DNA from: Candidatus Tectimicrobiota bacterium
GTDB lineage: Bacteria; JACPSX01
Reading direction: 5' to 3'
NCBI GenBank assembly: GCA_016193065.1
Contig: JACPSX010000207.1
Location: 1-17,297, forward strand
Length of the DNA stretch: 17,297 bases
Each line of letters opens with the position of its first letter. Position 1 is the first letter of the stretch. Of the stretch, positions 23-16,494 are shown piece by piece. The position numbers were made by a program, and so were the translations under genes. The notes below the pieces were generated by a model that saw only the letters and a program-made list of their open reading frames with translations, was not told the origin of the DNA and searched no databases.

Positions 23-1181
23 TCAAATGACACCCGCTTGCTTGAGAATCGTCAGATCCTCGTGTCTGAGACCGAGCTCCCCTCCATAGATCTCAAGATT
101 GTGCTCTCCGATCCGCGGTGCCCTGCAGCGGGGAGTGAAACTGCCCTGCGTGAAAAGGGCCGCCGGCCCCGGATAAGTGATCTCGCGTCCCAGCTCGGGA
201 TGAGGGAGCGTCACCCAAAAGTTCCTGGCCGCCAGTTGGGGATCGTTGAAGATGTCCTCCGGGGTCTGGACCGGGTAGCCGAGCATGCTCCGTTCTATGA
301 CGCCCGCGAAGTATTCCGCTTTGGTCAAGGTCTTAAGAAACTCTCCGGCAGGCTTCTCGATGGCGTCGATCTGTTCCTGGGTCGCGGTCGCGATGTCGAA
401 CTTGTCCCAATCAATCTCCTTTAGGTGAGCGGGGGCCATCCCCTTGCTGTCCATCCATTTCACCATCTCCCGGTTCGTCTTGCCGGTGAGGGTCGTCCCG
501 GTTCAGGTCCCAGCAGGCCGGCGCGTGCGCCAGTGAGGAGAGGGTGCTCGCCTGGGCGGAAACATCCACGTGCTGGCCTTCGCCGCTCAGCTCGCGCTCA
601 TAGTGAGCCATCAGGGTCCCCGCTGCCGCGTGCATCCCGGTCCACATGGGCGATTGGGGCAGAGAAATCCTCAGGGGCGGTCCATTTCTTTCCCCCGACA
701 ACGACATGGCACCCGATGTGGCCATGATTTCGATGTCGTGAGCTTTATAACCGCTATAGGGTCCGGACTGGCCAAAAGGGGTAATGGAGGTAAGGACGAG
801 CCGGGGGGTTTCCTGCTTCAGGACCTCATAGCCGAGGCCCCAGCCTGCCAGCGTCCCCGGAGGGAAAGATTCAAGGACGAAATCCGCTTTTCTGACCAGT
901 CGCTTGAAAAGTTCCTGACCCGTTTTCTCAGTGATATTGAGCGTAATCCCCCGCTTGCTCGTATTGTACGCAAACCAGTAGAGGCTCTTTTCCGGATCGA
1001 GCACGCCGTCCACGAACGGCCCGATGCTCCGGGAAGGATCACCGCCGGGGGGCTCCACCTTGATCACATCGGCCCCCATATCCCCCAGAATCTTTCCGCA
1101 CAGAAAACCCAGGTCATCGGTGAGATCAAGAACCCGATAAGGAGCTAAGATCCCCTCGGGCTGGTTCGGAACCTTATCCAT
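23..1181 (-). pseudogene. Class III (CaiB/BaiF) CoA-transferase, broken by frameshift and probable internal deletion
   Basis: Family III CoA-transferases move CoA between acyl donors and carboxylic acids through an aspartyl-CoA thioester. The first part (1181 to about 498) shows the family N-terminus, VLDLTDDLGFLCGKILGDMG, then ADVIKVEPPGGD, and a candidate catalytic Asp149 in KAHDIEIMATSGAM. The C-terminal part (to 23) continues in another frame with EGMA-type sequence, HPELGREITYPG and a terminal IGEHNLEIYGGELGL. The frame changes just after WDLNR (about 497), where the correct continuation is TLTGKTNREMVKWMDSKGMA. From memory of relatives, some 40 residues including a WPCKDG-type motif normally lie between these two blocks, so an internal deletion is likely as well as the frame change. 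The joined product would be about 386 residues, against roughly 420 expected. The start at 1181 is chosen for its AGAGGAGAG sequence and the family N-terminus. An assembly error cannot be excluded. Confidence 0.8.
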
Positions 1182-1239
1182 CTCCTGGCTCTCCTCTGCC
1201 AGAATCCTTCCTGCCTGCGGCCGGAATGCCGGCACAAGA

Positions 1240-1290: not shown

Positions 1291-2844
1291 CTAGAATCCC
1301 GTCTTGGCCAGATACTTGCTGTATTCGGTCATCCCCTCTTTGGCCTTTTCAATCTGCTGCTTGCTGAACCACTTGTTCAGATCCACCGCATCGATGGGGT
1401 ACGGGGGCCTCTCAAAAGCATCCCTGTACTGGAACGGGACGGTGGCGTCGACAGCCATCCCGCCAGCGAAGCGGATGTTTGTCTGTGTCCAATCCCGGTC
1501 TCCCGCCGAGCTTCTCTCCGCGGGCTGGAAGGTCTGGCCAAATCCGCCCTGGCAAACCGCCTGGATGCTGAAAGGAGTCGTGCGCGTCACCAGAGCCCAC
1601 ATGACGTCCTCCACGTTGTAAATATCGATGTCCGTATCGACCGCAATGGTCATCCTCATTCCTAAGGAAGAGGAGAGAGCCGCGGAGAGAATGTTGCGCT
1701 GCAAGCCTTCGTCTCGCTGGCGCCTCTTCTTGATTTGGAAAATCGCTCCACCCCAATCGGTCATGGCCATAGGAATGTGGATATCCACACAGAGACCGGG
1801 GCTGATCCGGTCCGCAAGCTCCAAAAAGCAGGCTTCCCGCATCATCACATCGATGTAATGGTCGTCAAACCCGTGGACGATGAGCGGGTAATAGATCGGC
1901 TTCTCGGCCCTGTGAGTGATGGCAGTGACGACGAACTTATAGGTCCGGTAGGCCTTCCCCATATAGCCGGCCCACTCGGGATGGAACGGGAAGACCCCCT
2001 GCTTGCCGGTCCTTTCGGCCTCCTCGCTCTCCCAGACTTTCTGGGTCGTATCCAGATACCCCTCGATGACATACTCGGCCTGGGCAATCGAATAGGCATC
2101 CACGGTGCGAGCCTTGACAATCTCAATCGGAGAGCCCTGCATGGCTCCCGCCACACCCAGCTCATCCGAGCCCTTGTGCAGGATCATATAGAGGAACCCC
2201 GCTCCGGCCATCAAGGTGCAGGCAGGCGGAACCCCCATATTGATCGTCATGGGGATCGGCTCTTTGCGGTACCACTCGGTGGCGATCATATCCGTGTGGG
2301 AACCCGGAGAGATCTGGAAGCTGGAGAAATTGGGACCGCGGAAGTGCATGCGGTTGTAGCTGATGTGTGTCCCGCCCCAGAAGTATTTCCCCGTGACCAG
2401 GGTATTTCCCCCGCCCAGTGTGCGCCCGGGATCCTTCCTCGTGTGGGAGATCATCGGGATCACCTTCCAGGCATCTATATCCTTGTCGATGACCACTTCC
2501 TGGCAGGGGGCATCCTTGACCACTTTGGGAGGCAACGGGTGCCGCAAGGCCTCGACGCACTTGAACTTGAATTTCCTGGGATCCTCGACTCCGAATAGGC
2601 GGGACACCCGTTCTTCGTTGGCAAACAAGTTGGTGAACAAGCGGCCGTTCGGGTAACCTTTTACCTTTTGGAACAGAAGGGATTTTCCTCCGTCCAGATG
2701 CTTTTGAATCGCAGCCATCTCCAGGGCAGGATCAATCTCTACTTCCGTCTCTATCAGCTCGCCCGCATCCCGCAAATATTCAATGGTGCTCCGTAGCGAA
2801 GTGAAATCTTTCACCGCTACTGCGGTTCCGCCGTCTTTTGCCAT
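1291..2844 (-). CDS. UbiD-family decarboxylase/carboxylase (prenylated-FMN dependent)
   Basis: UbiD-family enzymes reversibly decarboxylate aromatic or unsaturated acids using prenylated FMN, which is made by UbiX from FMN and a dimethylallyl phosphate. The product is 517 residues, the usual family length. Visible family features are an N-terminal domain with GRLFTNLFANEERV; GGNTLVTGKYFWGGTH and YNRMHFRG (Arg165 in the place of the conserved cofactor-side Arg); MTINMGVPPACTLMAG; and AQAEYVIEG (Glu257, Glu261), where the acidic catalytic residues are expected. The start at 2844 is preceded by AAAGGAGGAG at ideal spacing; the longer reading from 2901 has no such site. The gene is downstream of a candidate promoter at 3043-3073 and upstream of a terminator and a broken CoA-transferase. 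That context suggests an aryl-CoA or aromatic acid substrate, but the substrate cannot be read from the sequence. No ubiX is in the window. Confidence 0.88.
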   Translation of the reverse strand: MAKDGGTAVAVKDFTSLRSTIEYLRDAGELIETEVEIDPALEMAAIQKHLDGGKSLLFQKVKGYPNGRLFTNLFANEERVSRLFGVEDPRKFKFKCVEALRHPLPPKVVKDAPCQEVVIDKDIDAWKVIPMISHTRKDPGRTLGGGNTLVTGKYFWGGTHISYNRMHFRGPNFSSFQISPGSHTDMIATEWYRKEPIPMTINMGVPPACTLMAGAGFLYMILHKGSDELGVAGAMQGSPIEIVKARTVDAYSIAQAEYVIEGYLDTTQKVWESEEAERTGKQGVFPFHPEWAGYMGKAYRTYKFVVTAITHRAEKPIYYPLIVHGFDDHYIDVMMREACFLELADRISPGLCVDIHIPMAMTDWGGAIFQIKKRRQRDEGLQRNILSAALSSSLGMRMTIAVDTDIDIYNVEDVMWALVTRTTPFSIQAVCQGGFGQTFQPAERSSAGDRDWTQTNIRFAGGMAVDATVPFQYRDAFERPPYPIDAVDLNKWFSKQQIEKAKEGMTEYSKYLAKTGF

Positions 2845-3042
2845 GTGATTCTCCTCCTTTAGGAAATCCCAATCCGGATATAACACAGCCAGGGGACTCA
2901 CGCAAAACCCGACCCCCCCGGGAAATTGTGCGCTTGGAACCGGGTTTGATGTTCGCAGGCTGAGTTCGGATTGCGGTAGTTTAGTCTACTTCTACTCCCT
3001 AACCCAGCGGAAGATCCCTGGCCTGAAGGTATTTGCCGAGCG

Positions 3043-7851: not shown

Positions 7852-7880
7852 TTGACAGAACTAATGGTTCCCGTTATCGT
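7852..7880 (+). promoter_or_regulatory. Sigma-70-like promoter of the ispH fusion gene
   Basis: TTGACA (7852-7857), a 17-nt spacer and TATCGT (7875-7880) give a good promoter with a predicted start near 7887. This leaves a leader of about 40 nt to the GTG at 7929. The upstream ATG at 7896 would have only a 9-nt leader and a poor ribosome site, which supports the GTG start. Confidence 0.65.
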
Positions 7881-7928
7881 AGAGAAGATTGATCGATGAT
7901 TTCCATCCGTGAGAGGGGGAAACTCCTG

Positions 7929-9671
7929 GTGAAAAAGGTCATCGCAAAGGAAGGGGCCGGTTACTGCATGGGGGTGCGCAGGGCGATGAACATCGTCCTG
8001 GACGCCGCCAACAAAGAAGAGAAATCCGTCACGACCTTTGGACCCATCATCCATAACCCCCAGGCCGTAGAGATCCTTAATTCCAAAGACGTAAGAGTTG
8101 TCAACCAGGTCTCCGAGCTCAAGTCAAACGGCACCGTCATTGTCCGGGCCCATGGAATTGGCCCCGACGTGCGCCAGGAGCTCAAATCCACAGGGCTTAC
8201 CATTCGCGATGCCACCTGCCCCCTGGTCAGCAAGGTTCACTCCTCCATCCGGCGCTACCTGAAGCGCGGGCACCACCTGATCATTGTCGGAGAGGAAAAG
8301 CACCCCGAGGTGATTGGGCACCTCGGCTTTGCCCGCGGGCAGGGGAGCGTGATCAGCAGAATCGAAGACGTCGAGAAGCTGCCTGATTTCAAAAAGGTCT
8401 GCGTCGTTTCCCAAACCACCTTTGACGAGGAGTACTTCCTGCAAATTGCAGACGCCCTAAGAAAACGTTATCCGGTCTGCGAGGTGGTCAACACAATATG
8501 CTTCGAGACCTTGAACCGCCAGAGGGAGGTCCGGGAGATGGCCCAGAAGGTCGATGCCATGGTGGTCATCGGCGGCAAAAACAGCGGCAATACCCGGCGC
8601 CTGGCTCAGATTTCCGAGTCTTACGGAATCCCTGCTTTCTTCGTCGAGACCGAGAAAGAGATCAACCTGGACGAGCTCGAAAAGTTTGAGAGTGTCGGCA
8701 TCACAGCCGGCGCATCGACACCCAACTGGCTTATCCAGAAAGTCATTGATCACATCGATGCCCTCGAGCACCGTCACGAGCCTCTCTGGATGCAGGGGCT
8801 GAGGCGAATGACGACCACCCTCTTCCGTCTCAGCTTCTTCGTCGCTCTGGGCGCCGCCCTTCTTACCCACGGAGCCGCATTGCTCCAGGGGATCCAACCC
8901 AAGCCCGTCTACCCCCTCATAGCCATCCTCTACACACTTTCCATGTTCATCTTAAACCGCTGCCTGGATAAGGAGGCGGATAAATTCAACGAGCCCGGCC
9001 GCACAGAGTTTTACGAGCGGCACGGGCGGTCCCTGCTGGGAGCCGGCCTGGCCGCCGGCATCACTGCCCTGGCTCTGGCTTTCCCTCTAGGACCCCTTCC
9101 CTTTCTGTGTCTGCTGATCTTTAGCCTGGCGGGGGTTCTCTACAGTGTAAGGCTCATTCCGCCGCGCTGGCAGGATGTGCTTCACATACGGCGGCCCAAG
9201 GATATACCGGCTTCGAAGAGCTTTTTCATTCCGATCGCCTGCGCCGTGGTGATGGTCTTTATCCCCTATCTGAGTTCGGATTCCGGAGCACTGCCGGCAA
9301 CCCTGGCCACGAGTCTTTTCGTCTTCACGGTTGTTTTCCTGCGCACGGCTCTGCTGGACATGAGCGACATCGAGCGGGACCGGATCGCAGGCAGCGAAAT
9401 CCTGACCATGCTCATCGAAAAGCCGGCGACCCTCAGGCTGCTCTGGGGCATGCTCGGGTTCATGGCTGCCGTCGTCACGGGGCTCGCCCTGGCCGGTTGG
9501 TTATCCCTTCTCGCAGTTGCCATGCTGGCGGCTCTGGGATATTCCGCTTTGAGCCTCTACCTTTACCAGCGCAAGGTGGTTTTCAACGGCCTCACATTTC
9601 TCCTCATAGTGGACGGCAACCTGATCGTAGCAGGTCTTCTGGCCTATCTAGGGTCCCTATTGCTGGCCTAA
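7929..9671 (+). CDS. ispH: IspH (HMBPP reductase) fused to a UbiA-like membrane prenyltransferase domain
   Basis: Residues 1-280 are a complete IspH, which reduces HMBPP to IPP and DMAPP with a [4Fe-4S] cluster. They show Cys13 (GYCMGVRRA), His42, His75 (RAHGIG), Cys97 (ATCPLV), His125 and Glu127 (EKHPEVIGH), SQTT, Cys191 (NTICFET), KNSGNT and GASTPNW. Normal IspH ends here at about 280-315 residues. Residues 290-580 add about nine hydrophobic helices with the two aspartate motifs of UbiA prenyltransferases: N343-x3-D347-x3-D351 (NRCLDKEADKFN) and D477-x2-D480-x3-D484 (DMSDIERD), plus the linking RRPKDIPASKSF segment. The protein is thus predicted to be membrane-anchored, with IspH in the cytoplasm. 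GTG at 7929 is chosen for its GAGGGGGA site and the MKKVIAKEGAGYC start; ATG at 7896 is the alternative. The substrate of the UbiA part is unknown. Confidence 0.88.
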   Translation: MKKVIAKEGAGYCMGVRRAMNIVLDAANKEEKSVTTFGPIIHNPQAVEILNSKDVRVVNQVSELKSNGTVIVRAHGIGPDVRQELKSTGLTIRDATCPLVSKVHSSIRRYLKRGHHLIIVGEEKHPEVIGHLGFARGQGSVISRIEDVEKLPDFKKVCVVSQTTFDEEYFLQIADALRKRYPVCEVVNTICFETLNRQREVREMAQKVDAMVVIGGKNSGNTRRLAQISESYGIPAFFVETEKEINLDELEKFESVGITAGASTPNWLIQKVIDHIDALEHRHEPLWMQGLRRMTTTLFRLSFFVALGAALLTHGAALLQGIQPKPVYPLIAILYTLSMFILNRCLDKEADKFNEPGRTEFYERHGRSLLGAGLAAGITALALAFPLGPLPFLCLLIFSLAGVLYSVRLIPPRWQDVLHIRRPKDIPASKSFFIPIACAVVMVFIPYLSSDSGALPATLATSLFVFTVVFLRTALLDMSDIERDRIAGSEILTMLIEKPATLRLLWGMLGFMAAVVTGLALAGWLSLLAVAMLAALGYSALSLYLYQRKVVFNGLTFLLIVDGNLIVAGLLAYLGSLLLA

Positions 9672-10794: not shown

Positions 10795-12066
10795 ATGGAG
10801 TTAAAGAAACGGCTGGAGCCCTGGGTATTCAAGGTCCCCATCGACAAAATCCGGGCCGGTTATTACACCGACAAGTACTTCCTCCGGGTAAGCGAGATCC
10901 TCGAAAAGGAAAATCACAACCCCCGGGTCATGTACCAGTTTTTTGTCCGGGAGCCGGTGGTGGTGGTGGGGATCGACGAAGCCATAGCGATCCTCAAATT
11001 CTGCACCGGCTACTATTCGGACCGGGAGGCCGCCGATCGCCTCTACAAGCGACTCCGGGAGGTGCAATACAACCTCTACCGGCTAACGGACCAGGGGCCC
11101 GAGGAGACCATTGCGGGCCTCCACGTGGAGAGGGCCCGGATCCGGCAGGAATTGAACCGGCTCTGGGTGAACTGCTGGAACCAGATCCGGGTGCGGGCTC
11201 TGTTTGACGGAGATCGAGTCGAACCATGGGAGCCCCTCATGATCATCGAGGGCCCCCAGCAATACTTCGCCTATCTGGAAACCGTCTTGCTCGGGGTCAT
11301 CGCCCGTCCCACCGCCACTGCCACCGCCACCGCGGAAGTGGTCGGGGCAGCCCAGGGCAAGCCGATCCTGTTTTTTCCAGCCCGCTTCGACCACTTCTGG
11401 GTGCAAGCGACGGACGGGTACGCAGCCATGAAGGCCGGAGCCTTCGGGGTCAGCACGGATGCCAACGCGGATTACTGGGGAGACGTGGGGGTCGGGACGA
11501 TCCCCCACTGCCTGATCGCCGCTTACGGCGGCTCCACTGTGGAAGCCTCCCTGGCCTTCGACCGGCAGATCGAGGACAGCGTAAACCGGGTCGTTCTGGT
11601 GGATTGGGACAACGATTGCATCGGGACCACCCTGCAGGTGATCAACGCCCTTTACGACAAGCATTGGGGAGTCACCCCGCGGGATCTGAAAAAGGCCGTG
11701 GGCCCGGGAAAGCACAAGATCTGGGGGATTCGCTTCGACACTTCCGGGAACCTGCGCGATAAGTCGGTGGCCCCACACGACGAACACAGTTTGGGAGTCT
11801 GTCCGGAGCTCGTGCACAAGGCCCGGGAGGTTTTTGACGCCCACGGGCTTCAGGATCTGAAGATCGTCGCCTCCGGAGGATTCAACGCCGCCAGGATCGA
11901 GCTGTTTGAGAAACTCCAGGTCCCGGTCGATTCCTACGGCGTCGGCTCAAGCTTGCTGCAAAAAAAAATCGACGTCACCGCCGATGTGGTGGAGGTGGAT
12001 GGCAAGCCCTGCGCCAAGGTCGGTCGCAAAAAAGGAGATCTCAGCCGGCTTGCCCCGGTCGATTAG
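10795..12066 (+). CDS. Nicotinate phosphoribosyltransferase family protein
   Basis: This family joins nicotinic acid to PRPP to make nicotinate mononucleotide for NAD salvage. The 423-residue product has the N-terminal YYTDKYFLR (23-31), the central FFPARFDHFWVQATDGYAAM (193-212), GAFGVSTDANADYWG (216-229), GVGTIPHCLIAAYGG (232-246) with His238 at the likely phosphorylated-histidine position, and IRFDTSGNLRDKS (312-324). It ends with a VASGGF-type phosphate-binding segment and YGVGSSL. AGGAGGA precedes the ATG at good spacing. One oddity is an alternating Thr-Ala run at 173-180 (RPTATATATAEVV), coded by ACC/GCC repeats, where relatives have more varied sequence. The gene is not next to other NAD genes. 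A salvage role is assigned from the family alone. Confidence 0.85.
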   Translation: MELKKRLEPWVFKVPIDKIRAGYYTDKYFLRVSEILEKENHNPRVMYQFFVREPVVVVGIDEAIAILKFCTGYYSDREAADRLYKRLREVQYNLYRLTDQGPEETIAGLHVERARIRQELNRLWVNCWNQIRVRALFDGDRVEPWEPLMIIEGPQQYFAYLETVLLGVIARPTATATATAEVVGAAQGKPILFFPARFDHFWVQATDGYAAMKAGAFGVSTDANADYWGDVGVGTIPHCLIAAYGGSTVEASLAFDRQIEDSVNRVVLVDWDNDCIGTTLQVINALYDKHWGVTPRDLKKAVGPGKHKIWGIRFDTSGNLRDKSVAPHDEHSLGVCPELVHKAREVFDAHGLQDLKIVASGGFNAARIELFEKLQVPVDSYGVGSSLLQKKIDVTADVVEVDGKPCAKVGRKKGDLSRLAPVD

Positions 12067-13758: not shown

Positions 13759-14495
13759 AGGATAATTCTGTCGATTTCCTTACCCCCCACTACAATCGGG
13801 ACCTACCGCTTCTCTTGCCCCGCTTCGACGAGATGCGGGATATCGTTGTCCAGATGATCCCCTACGACCGGGACTTCCCCCTCACCTTCCTCGACCTGGG
13901 AGCCGGCAGCGGCAGCCTCACAGCGGCGATTCTCGAGCAGTACCCCAACTCAAAGGCGATCTGCGTGGCCCCATCCGAGCAGGCTCTGACCTGCGCCCGG
14001 GAATGCCTGGCCCCCTTTCCAGAGCGCGTCAACTATCACACAGAAGACCTGAACGACTACGAAGCCCTGGAGTCGATCCACGATCCCCTTCACCTGGCCA
14101 TCTCGATCCTGGTGCTCCACCAACTCCCTCACCCCCGCAAACGGTCTCTGTTTGCCGAGATCTTCGTCAAGCTGGCCCTCGGGGGAGCCCTGATCGTTGC
14201 GGACGAGATCCTGTCCCCTTCCGATCACCTGCAGCGCTTCTATTACAAACGCTGGGACCTCCACGTCCAGGAGCAACTGAAGGCGGGGCGGCTGTCGGCG
14301 GAAACGGAGAGCCGGTGGGGGGAGTTTGTGCGGGAAAACCTCGGTGAGTCAAGCTTTCCCGCCCAGCCAGGCAGCCACCATCGCGCCGGTATGGGAATCC
14401 AGATGAAGTGGCTGGTGGAGCTGGGTTACCGGGAAGTCGACTGCTACTGGAAATACCATCACTGGTCCATCTTCGGCGGTTTCAGGACGGCGTGA
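13755..14495 (+). CDS. Class I SAM-dependent methyltransferase, substrate unknown
   Basis: The 246-residue product has a Rossmann-type SAM site: motif I LTFLDLGAGSGSLTAAIL (about 43-60), an acidic turn near AICVAPSEQAL, HTEDLNDYE, and LAISILVLHQL, followed by LALGGALIVADEI. The C-terminal half contains a helical insert and ends YWKYHHWSIFGGFRTA, a pattern seen in small-molecule and CmoA-like methyltransferases. I cannot assign the substrate. The start is uncertain by three codons. GTG at 13755 overlaps the dapF stop as GTGA and has GGAG 10 nt upstream; ATG at 13746 has GGAG only one base away and is less likely. It is translationally coupled to dapF and lies 7 nt before the helicase gene. Confidence 0.8.
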   Translation: MKDNSVDFLTPHYNRDLPLLLPRFDEMRDIVVQMIPYDRDFPLTFLDLGAGSGSLTAAILEQYPNSKAICVAPSEQALTCARECLAPFPERVNYHTEDLNDYEALESIHDPLHLAISILVLHQLPHPRKRSLFAEIFVKLALGGALIVADEILSPSDHLQRFYYKRWDLHVQEQLKAGRLSAETESRWGEFVRENLGESSFPAQPGSHHRAGMGIQMKWLVELGYREVDCYWKYHHWSIFGGFRTA

Positions 14496-14502
14496 GGAAG
14501 CG

Positions 14503-16494
14503 ATGAGAACCTACCGGCTCCGCCACGATCCGGGCTCTCCCCCGCTCTCCCCGACCATCGACTACGGCGCGGCCCTCAACGAGAGCCAGATGAAAGCGGT
14601 GGAGACCCTGGAAGGCCCGGTGCTGGTGGTGGCAGGAGCCGGGACGGGGAAGACCCGCACCCTCGTCTACCGGGTGGCCCGCCTCGTGGACCGCGGGATA
14701 CCCCCCGAGCAGATCCTCCTGCTGACCTTCACCCGCAGGGCCGCGGAAGAGATGCTGCGCCGGGCCAGCGCTCTTATCGACGGCCGCTGTGACCGTGTCC
14801 AGGGGGGGACCTTTCACTCGGTCGCCTACCTGATCCTGAGGAAGTACGGCCAACTTCTCGGTTACCCTCCTGCGTTCACGATCATGGACCGCAGCGACGC
14901 GGAGGACGTCATCCAGCTCCTGCGCGGGCGCCTGGGTTTGAGCGACAAGGAAAAGAGATTCCCCCGCAAGACGACTCTGGCGGACATGCTGAGCAAATCC
15001 GTGAACCGGCAAGAACCACTGGAGTCCACCCTGAACCGCGAATACCCCCATTTTTTCCACTACCTCGACGACCTGGTCCGGCTCCAGGAAGAATACACCT
15101 CCTTCAAGAGGGAGAAGGCTCTGCTGGATTACGATGATCTCCTGGTCCAATTGACGGAGCTGCTGAGCCGGCATGAAGACGTGCGGGAGAGGCTCTCCCA
15201 GAGGTACCGCTACATTTTGGTGGATGAATACCAGGACACGAACAAGATCCAGTCTGCGATCATCCGGCTTCTTGCCTTCCATCACGACAACGTCATGGTC
15301 GTGGGGGACGACGCCCAGAGCATCTACTCCTTCCGGGGCGCGAACTTCCGCAACATCATGGACTTCCCGCAGCACTTTCCGGGGACCCGGATCATCCCCC
15401 TGGAGGAAAACTACCGCAGCACCCCCGCCATCCTGGAGTTCACCAACGCCGTCATCGAGGGCGCCCGGGAAAAATACACGAAGCATCTCTTCAGCCGCAA
15501 GCCGCACGGGGAGCGCCCGGCCCTGGTGCAGACCCGGGAGGAAAGAGAGCAGTCCCGGTTCGTCTGCCAAAAAGTTCTCGAGCTCCGCGAGGAAGGAGTG
15601 CCCCTGGGGGATATGGCCGTTCTGTTCCGCTCCAGTTTCCATTCCTTCGACCTGGAGATCGAACTGGGACACCGGAGCATCCCTTTCGTCAAACGGGGAG
15701 GGCTGCAGTTCATCGAGACCTCCCACGTCAAAGACACCATGGCTCATCTCCGGGTCCTGCTGAACCCCGCGGATTCCGTAAGCTGGCACCGCATCCTTCA
15801 GCTCATCGAGGGGATCGGCCCCCGCCATTGTCTGGCCATCACCGACAGGATCCAGCAAACCCCGGAGGATCCGGTCTCCTCTCTGCGCTCCTATCCGGCT
15901 CCGACCCGCTCCCGGGCCGGCCTCTCCCGGCTGTGCGATCTCTTGAGCGATCTCTGGAGGAACTCCTCTCCGCCCAGCGAGCTCCTCTCCCTTCTCCTCT
16001 ACTACTACGAGCCGATCCTGCAGGAAAAATTCGATAACTTTCCCAAAAGGGCCAGGGACCTGGAACACCTCGTAGCCATGAGCCAGCGCTACCGGACACT
16101 GGAGGCGTTCCTGGCCGATGTGGCTCTCGAGCCACCCACCGAGAGTGTCTCCGGCATGACTCCTGAAGACCAGGATGACGAGAAGCTCATCCTCTCGACG
16201 ATCCACTCGGCCAAGGGGCTCGAGTGGCATACGGTCTTCATCCTGTGGGCCGTGGACGGAAAATTCCCCTCTCCCCACTCCCTGCATCGGGAGGAAGACC
16301 TGGAAGAGGAGAGGCGTCTCATGTACGTGGCCTCAACGCGGGCCAGCCGGAACCTGTTTATCCTTTTCCCCCTGCACATGTACGATCATGCCTTCGGCCA
16401 CACCCTGGCCCAGCCCTCTGTTTTCCTGCGGGAGCTGCCCAGCGATCTGGTCGATTTCTGGACCACACAAGATGACGACAGCTCTATACTCTGA
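14503..16494 (+). CDS. UvrD/Rep/PcrA-type superfamily 1 DNA helicase
   Basis: This is an ATP-driven 3'-5' helicase of the repair and replication-restart group. The 663-residue product contains the motifs in order: LNESQMKAVE (Q motif, 25-34), Walker A VVAGAGTGKTRTL (42-54), TFTRRAAEEM (about 76-85), Walker B LVDEYQDTN (about 238-246), VVGDDAQSIYSFRGA (about 266-280), LEENYRST (about 301-308), STIHSAKGLEWHTVF (about 566-580) and MYVASTRASRNL (about 607-618). It is a little shorter than E. coli UvrD (720) and lacks that protein's C-terminal tail, so which subgroup it belongs to is open. GAGGAAGCG precedes the ATG. It is cotranscribed with dapF and the methyltransferase. A large antisense ORF across it is a composition artefact. 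Confidence 0.93.
   Translation: MRTYRLRHDPGSPPLSPTIDYGAALNESQMKAVETLEGPVLVVAGAGTGKTRTLVYRVARLVDRGIPPEQILLLTFTRRAAEEMLRRASALIDGRCDRVQGGTFHSVAYLILRKYGQLLGYPPAFTIMDRSDAEDVIQLLRGRLGLSDKEKRFPRKTTLADMLSKSVNRQEPLESTLNREYPHFFHYLDDLVRLQEEYTSFKREKALLDYDDLLVQLTELLSRHEDVRERLSQRYRYILVDEYQDTNKIQSAIIRLLAFHHDNVMVVGDDAQSIYSFRGANFRNIMDFPQHFPGTRIIPLEENYRSTPAILEFTNAVIEGAREKYTKHLFSRKPHGERPALVQTREEREQSRFVCQKVLELREEGVPLGDMAVLFRSSFHSFDLEIELGHRSIPFVKRGGLQFIETSHVKDTMAHLRVLLNPADSVSWHRILQLIEGIGPRHCLAITDRIQQTPEDPVSSLRSYPAPTRSRAGLSRLCDLLSDLWRNSSPPSELLSLLLYYYEPILQEKFDNFPKRARDLEHLVAMSQRYRTLEAFLADVALEPPTESVSGMTPEDQDDEKLILSTIHSAKGLEWHTVFILWAVDGKFPSPHSLHREEDLEEERRLMYVASTRASRNLFILFPLHMYDHAFGHTLAQPSVFLRELPSDLVDFWTTQDDDSSIL

Follow-up and report, generated by a model that had tools for sequence, protein, structure and literature searches.

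IspH-UbiA fusions beyond sulfate-reducing bacteria: a member from Candidatus Tectimicrobiota and the erosion of the first aspartate-rich motif across the family

The fusion and its described relatives

The closest described counterparts of the locus considered here are the IspH-UbiA proteins of Rao, O'Dowd, Li, Wang and Oldfield (Chem Sci 2015; PMC4746011), who reported 47 of them, primarily from Desulfobacterales and 'all in sulfate-reducing bacteria', classed the membrane part as PT_UbiA_5, noted two DXXXD repeats in it and proposed that IspH provides a local supply of IPP and DMAPP. A full-length active IspH-UbiA could not be expressed and no activity of the UbiA half was reported in that study (PMC4746011); a literature search for functional work after 2015 recovered one citation and nothing further. 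The IspH-RPS1 fusions of Firmicutes likewise have a large C-terminal extension on IspH in one frame, but their partner is ribosomal protein S1 and no membrane domain is present. Stand-alone UbiA proteins of the DGGGP-synthase/chlorophyll-synthase type (7bpu, 6m31; ApUbiA 4od5; AfUbiA 4tq3) share with the protein studied here the UbiA fold (Z 16-20) and the NxxxDxxxD...NEPxR and DxxDxxxDxxxG motifs; however, the solved stand-alone structures show 12-16% identity to it, and most of its fused relatives lack the first Asp-rich motif. A further UbiA-fold protein, UBIAD1, is linked to an enzyme central to isoprenoid synthesis, HMG-CoA reductase, for which its role as a GGPP sensor is established (PMC9314443); the likeness is, however, one of analogy alone, the two being separate eukaryotic proteins of the mevalonate pathway with regulation by degradation.

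The window, which is the whole stretch of 17,297 nucleotides analyzed here (contig JACPSX010000207.1 of assembly GCA_016193065.1, Candidatus Tectimicrobiota bacterium), encodes a member of this published family, with a complete IspH and a C-terminal UbiA domain in one frame (Table 1). It agrees with the proteins of Rao et al. in domain order, size, intact IspH cysteines and a UbiA domain of about nine helices. The initial annotation, made from the sequence alone, had recognized the fusion but knew of no characterized UbiA fusion; the type had been in print since 2015 (PMC4746011), and what is new here is the pattern of active-site erosion together with a wider taxonomic range. The frame was checked for a stop or a frameshift separating the two domains and was found to be open throughout its 580 codons. 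An alternative in-frame ATG is possible at 7896; homologs start at the GTG position. The gene has a promoter-like site and a ribosome-binding stretch of its own and runs divergently from the hydantoinase A/B genes; no Rfam family was found in the window. That the fusion is an artifact of assembly or frameshifting, an idea to which a split CaiB gene elsewhere in the window (23-1235) might lend itself, is vanishingly improbable, since genomes from many families, independent of one another and some of them complete, show the same architecture, and the literature describes it as well.

Table 1. Features of the ispH-ubiA locus, in window coordinates
Feature	Position	Strand	Remarks
Sigma-70-like promoter candidate TTGACA-17-TATCGT	7852..7880	+	10/12 match; consensus scan alone
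Likely ribosome-binding site gagaggggga	7911..7920	+	purine-rich, just 5' of GTG; inferred from sequence
ispH-ubiA fusion gene	7929..9671	+	580 aa; GTG start; stop 9669-9671
IspH (LytB) domain	7938..8756	+	residues 4-276; Pfam LYTB E 1.2e-92
UbiA-fold membrane domain	8784..9668	+	residues 286-580; Pfam core 330-545
First Asp-rich motif NRCLDKEAD	8955..8981	+	N343, D347, D351; intact here
IPASK loop, I426-K430	9204..9218	+	family consensus IPGSK; Lys kept in 79/85
Second Asp-rich motif DMSDIERDRIAGS	9357..9395	+	D477, D480, D484, G488

Sequence profile analysis of the first half recovered a complete LYTB domain (310.5 bits, cut-off 24.5) and the NCBIfam IspH model TIGR00216 (299 bits, cut-off 187.85), and a phmmer search against solved structures returned IspH entries. 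The [4Fe-4S] ligands C13, C97 and C191, which the initial annotation had pointed out, are invariant in all 85 aligned fusions, as are the catalytic-type residues H42, H75, H125, E127, T164, S219, N221 and S263. This half is predicted to convert HMBPP to IPP and DMAPP, with which the MEP pathway ends. No IspH other than the fusion was detected in the genome of this bacterium, and the presence of DXR in the same genome implies that the MEP pathway is used.

The second half scored 48.6 bits with the Pfam UbiA model (E 8.3e-13; curated cut-off 34.2), in line with the UbiA similarity originally claimed for it; the phmmer search against solved structures gave no significant match for this half because it is too divergent for that search. 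An AlphaFold model of the fusion, built from 30 fusions, was confident (mean pLDDT 89.6, pTM 0.82) and matched IspH and UbiA crystal structures separately: residues 2-280 align with the IspH of E. coli at a Z of 34.6, while residues 300-578 align with the Aeropyrum pernix UbiA (4od4_A) over 257 residues with a Z of 19.9 and an rmsd of 3.0. Foldseek matched the fold of the UbiA half to structures of UbiA enzymes in which GPP or DMAPP is bound, and the UBIAD1 structure 8djk_B is also among the fold matches (Z 16.2). From residue 286 onward the model contains about nine long helices, consistent with the nine hydrophobic segments counted previously, and both the N343/D347/D351 and the D477/D480/D484 motifs are present, so that the anatomy first given for the fusion is correct in every stated detail. 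The nearest free relatives of the UbiA half (L136, L140) carry NxxxDxxxD...INxPxR motifs; judging by the motif, the half and these relatives appear to be of the DGGGP-synthase/chlorophyll-synthase type.

Distribution of the family and loss of the first Asp-rich motif

A profile made from six fusions was run against a broad sample of 386 bacterial genomes and recovered full-length fusions in 29 of them, from 24 families and including the genome of the window. In a named collection the best 80 loci came from Desulfobacterota, Nitrospinota, Nitrospirota, anammox-order Planctomycetota (Brocadia, Scalindua and Jettenia), a Deferribacteres MAG and a Chitinivibrionales MAG, and the carriers include the complete genomes of Brocadia pituitae and Desulfoluna limicola. 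The same two-domain order is therefore seen in dozens of independent genomes from several phyla, a range wider than that of the sulfate reducers to which the family had been assigned. In 26 of 28 carriers, that of the window among them, the fusion is the sole IspH, while two Nitrospirota (G066, G067; L176, L177) hold both a fused and a free form. The free IspH proteins of these two cluster with each other and with unfused IspH, and were possibly acquired from outside. On a tree of 144 IspH domains the fused and free states required 4 changes as against 32 in shuffles, the simple reading of which is one or a few origins of the fusion followed by some losses; one free IspH is nested among the fusions (L181/L193), with no UbiA remnant nearby. 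Each of the 45 carrier genomes that were checked has a further UbiA-family protein, so that none of them has the fused half as its sole UbiA.

In an alignment of 85 fusions the two Asp-rich motifs had very different fates. N343 is kept in 78 members, but Asp occupies position 347 in 29 and position 351 in 36; both acids are present in seven fusions, including the window protein, and neither in 27. The second motif is preserved to a far greater degree (D477 in 73/85, D480 in 62/85, D484 in 81/85, G488 in 83/85), and W438 (84/85), P446 (83/85) and the same G488 are among the positions of the UbiA half that rank with catalytic residues in their conservation. A loose version of the first motif was matched by 13 of the 85 fusions, whereas 39 matched it among 40 free UbiA proteins taken as a control from these carrier genomes (Fisher p = 6e-20, in a test that ignores shared ancestry). 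Mapped onto the tree of IspH domains, the acid at 347 changed 16 times and that at 351 seven times, as against a single change at D484. One shortened fusion of 503 residues (L192; G098:C13) is without the whole region of the first motif, retains the second, and is missed by the Pfam UbiA model.

Judged by these residues, most members of the family do not look like standard prenyltransferases, and the two-motif description of Rao et al. holds for some members, including the window protein, and not for the family as a whole. As the first motif is usually lost, the standard transferase reaction is unlikely to be the reason for which the fusion has been conserved; the erosion pattern thus argues against plain prenyl transfer as its conserved job.

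Potential functions of the UbiA half

The reading favored here, with a probability of roughly 0.55, is that the UbiA fold, still able to bind a ligand of the prenyl or diphosphate kind, tethers a housekeeping IspH to the membrane, and that this, and not ordinary Mg-dependent transfer, is the function conserved across the family. A membrane location is predicted from the joining of IspH to a UbiA-fold domain; with the C-terminus of IspH permanently attached in this way, IPP and DMAPP would be made at the cytoplasmic membrane surface, which might account for the fusion. The membrane half would descend from a prenyltransferase with an N-x3-D-x3-D...N(E/D)PxR motif, and would have kept K430, R472, D477-D484 and G488, which make up one lobe of the diphosphate site, while the first Asp-rich lobe was lost in most lineages. 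The initial annotation had proposed that IPP/DMAPP production is tethered next to a prenyl-transfer reaction, with possible channeling of DMAPP into it; the membrane position is supported by the UbiA fold, whereas channeling into prenyl transfer is disfavored by the usual loss of the first motif. Counting against this reading, the strict retention of D484, G488 and the ET motif is not obviously required by tethering alone, and the intact motifs of the window protein fit a working transferase. With both motifs kept, this protein, like the minority of members that share them, may still transfer prenyl groups, and its contrast with Brocadia-type members, in which the first motif is lost, is an informative one.

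A UbiA half that is an active prenyltransferase, fed with locally made IPP/DMAPP, as in the proposals of the initial annotation and of Rao et al., or with longer prenyl diphosphates made next to it, and perhaps serving as the quinone prenyltransferase of the host, is a rather unlikely alternative. Apart from the intact motifs of the window protein, the fold matches to ligand-bound UbiA enzymes (GPP or DMAPP) speak for it, as does the gene content of the host, which has a UbiE-type methyltransferase (217 bits) and yet, as its only other UbiA-family protein, a CtaB encoded beside CtaA. The carriers of Rao et al. also hold separate UbiA/MenA genes. No separate quinone prenyltransferase was found in the host assembly, but this assembly is 86% complete, so that one may be missing from it, and in nearly all other carriers full-length UbiA-family proteins are encoded apart from the fusion, many of them with MqnP- or MenA-like motifs. 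UbiA enzymes of this group take C15-C20+ donors and not the C5 unit made by IspH, a mismatch in donor size that adds to the erosion of the first motif in about 85-92% of the family. Moreover, no acceptor-pathway gene is among the 40 most recurrent neighbor groups of the 80-odd fusion loci, which are housekeeping by appearance. That the fused half makes the quinone in this species would be compatible with the host gene content but is not strongly supported by it.

The selective loss of the first motif, with strict retention of the second and of K430 and R472, might alternatively point to a sensor, in which a long prenyl diphosphate bound in the half-eroded site would tune IspH up or down in the manner of UBIAD1. 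The role of the latter as GGPP sensor for HMG-CoA reductase (PMC9314443) offers a precedent, and 8djk_B is recovered among the fold matches. However, ligand binding and allostery are here purely hypothetical, the UBIAD1 match goes no further than the common UbiA fold, and UBIAD1, a protein separate from its target, works through protein degradation; a sensor of this kind is accordingly held to be unlikely. A more elaborate form of the idea, in which a former prenyltransferase has become, across several phyla, a half-site domain for sensing or retaining prenyl diphosphates that sets both where and how fast IspH works, is decidedly doubtful. If it were true, the fusion would be a prokaryotic MEP-pathway counterpart of the action of UBIAD1 on HMG-CoA reductase, and sensing of prenyl diphosphates by the UbiA half would give anaerobes and anammox bacteria a feedback point on their MEP pathway.

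The tree could also be taken to indicate a decaying passenger kept by history, with anchoring as its only function, in that the positions of the first motif change repeatedly, a shortened version exists in L192, and the nested free IspH without a UbiA remnant nearby suggests that the half can be lost. Against this, the half is at full length in nearly all members from several phyla, with W438, G488 and P446 near-invariant, and the passenger reading has little probability beside a tethering domain with a retained ligand site.

Host genome and gene neighborhood

Besides the enzymes already mentioned, the host encodes two polyprenyl synthases, one of which adjoins an apparent isopentenyl-diphosphate isomerase. 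The CtaA/CtaB pair (heme A) suggests that a strictly anaerobic, sulfate-reducing life is improbable for this bacterium. Futalosine menaquinone genes were considered on account of two PF02621 matches, but these are transporter-like binding proteins by eye.

By eye, the recurrent neighbors of the fusions include likenesses to ParA/ParB, a small DUF3842-like protein, PlsY, NYN/YacP, DXS and TlyA. The initial annotation had remarked that the UbiD-family enzyme of the window ultimately needs dimethylallyl phosphate for its cofactor, though it claimed no direct link. None was found: the gene for this enzyme is on the other strand at a distance of about 5 kb, and the 40 neighbor groups that recur most often at the 80-odd fusion loci showed no evident UbiD-like group. 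The decarboxylase itself (1291-2901, minus strand) has VdcC as its nearest NCBIfam model, at 185 bits and below the cut-off, and adjoins a CaiB gene and a hydantoinase A/B pair, with which it possibly forms a cluster for the degradation of aromatic compounds or cyclic amides. The CaiB gene (CoA-transferase family III; 23-1235, minus strand) is split over two frames, with 411-1235 matching profile positions 3-220 and 23-466 matching 273-366, and so carries a frameshift, be it real or an assembly error.

Downstream of the fusion, 10795-12066 (plus strand) encodes a nicotinate phosphoribosyltransferase-like protein of 423 residues, which falls below every NCBIfam cut-off and has more than 120 N-terminal residues preceding the match. 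Further on, a frame of 601 codons (14482-16287, minus strand) with no Pfam match lies antisense to a UvrD-type helicase gene (14503-16494, plus strand) and is probably a by-product of the high-G+C coding sequence.
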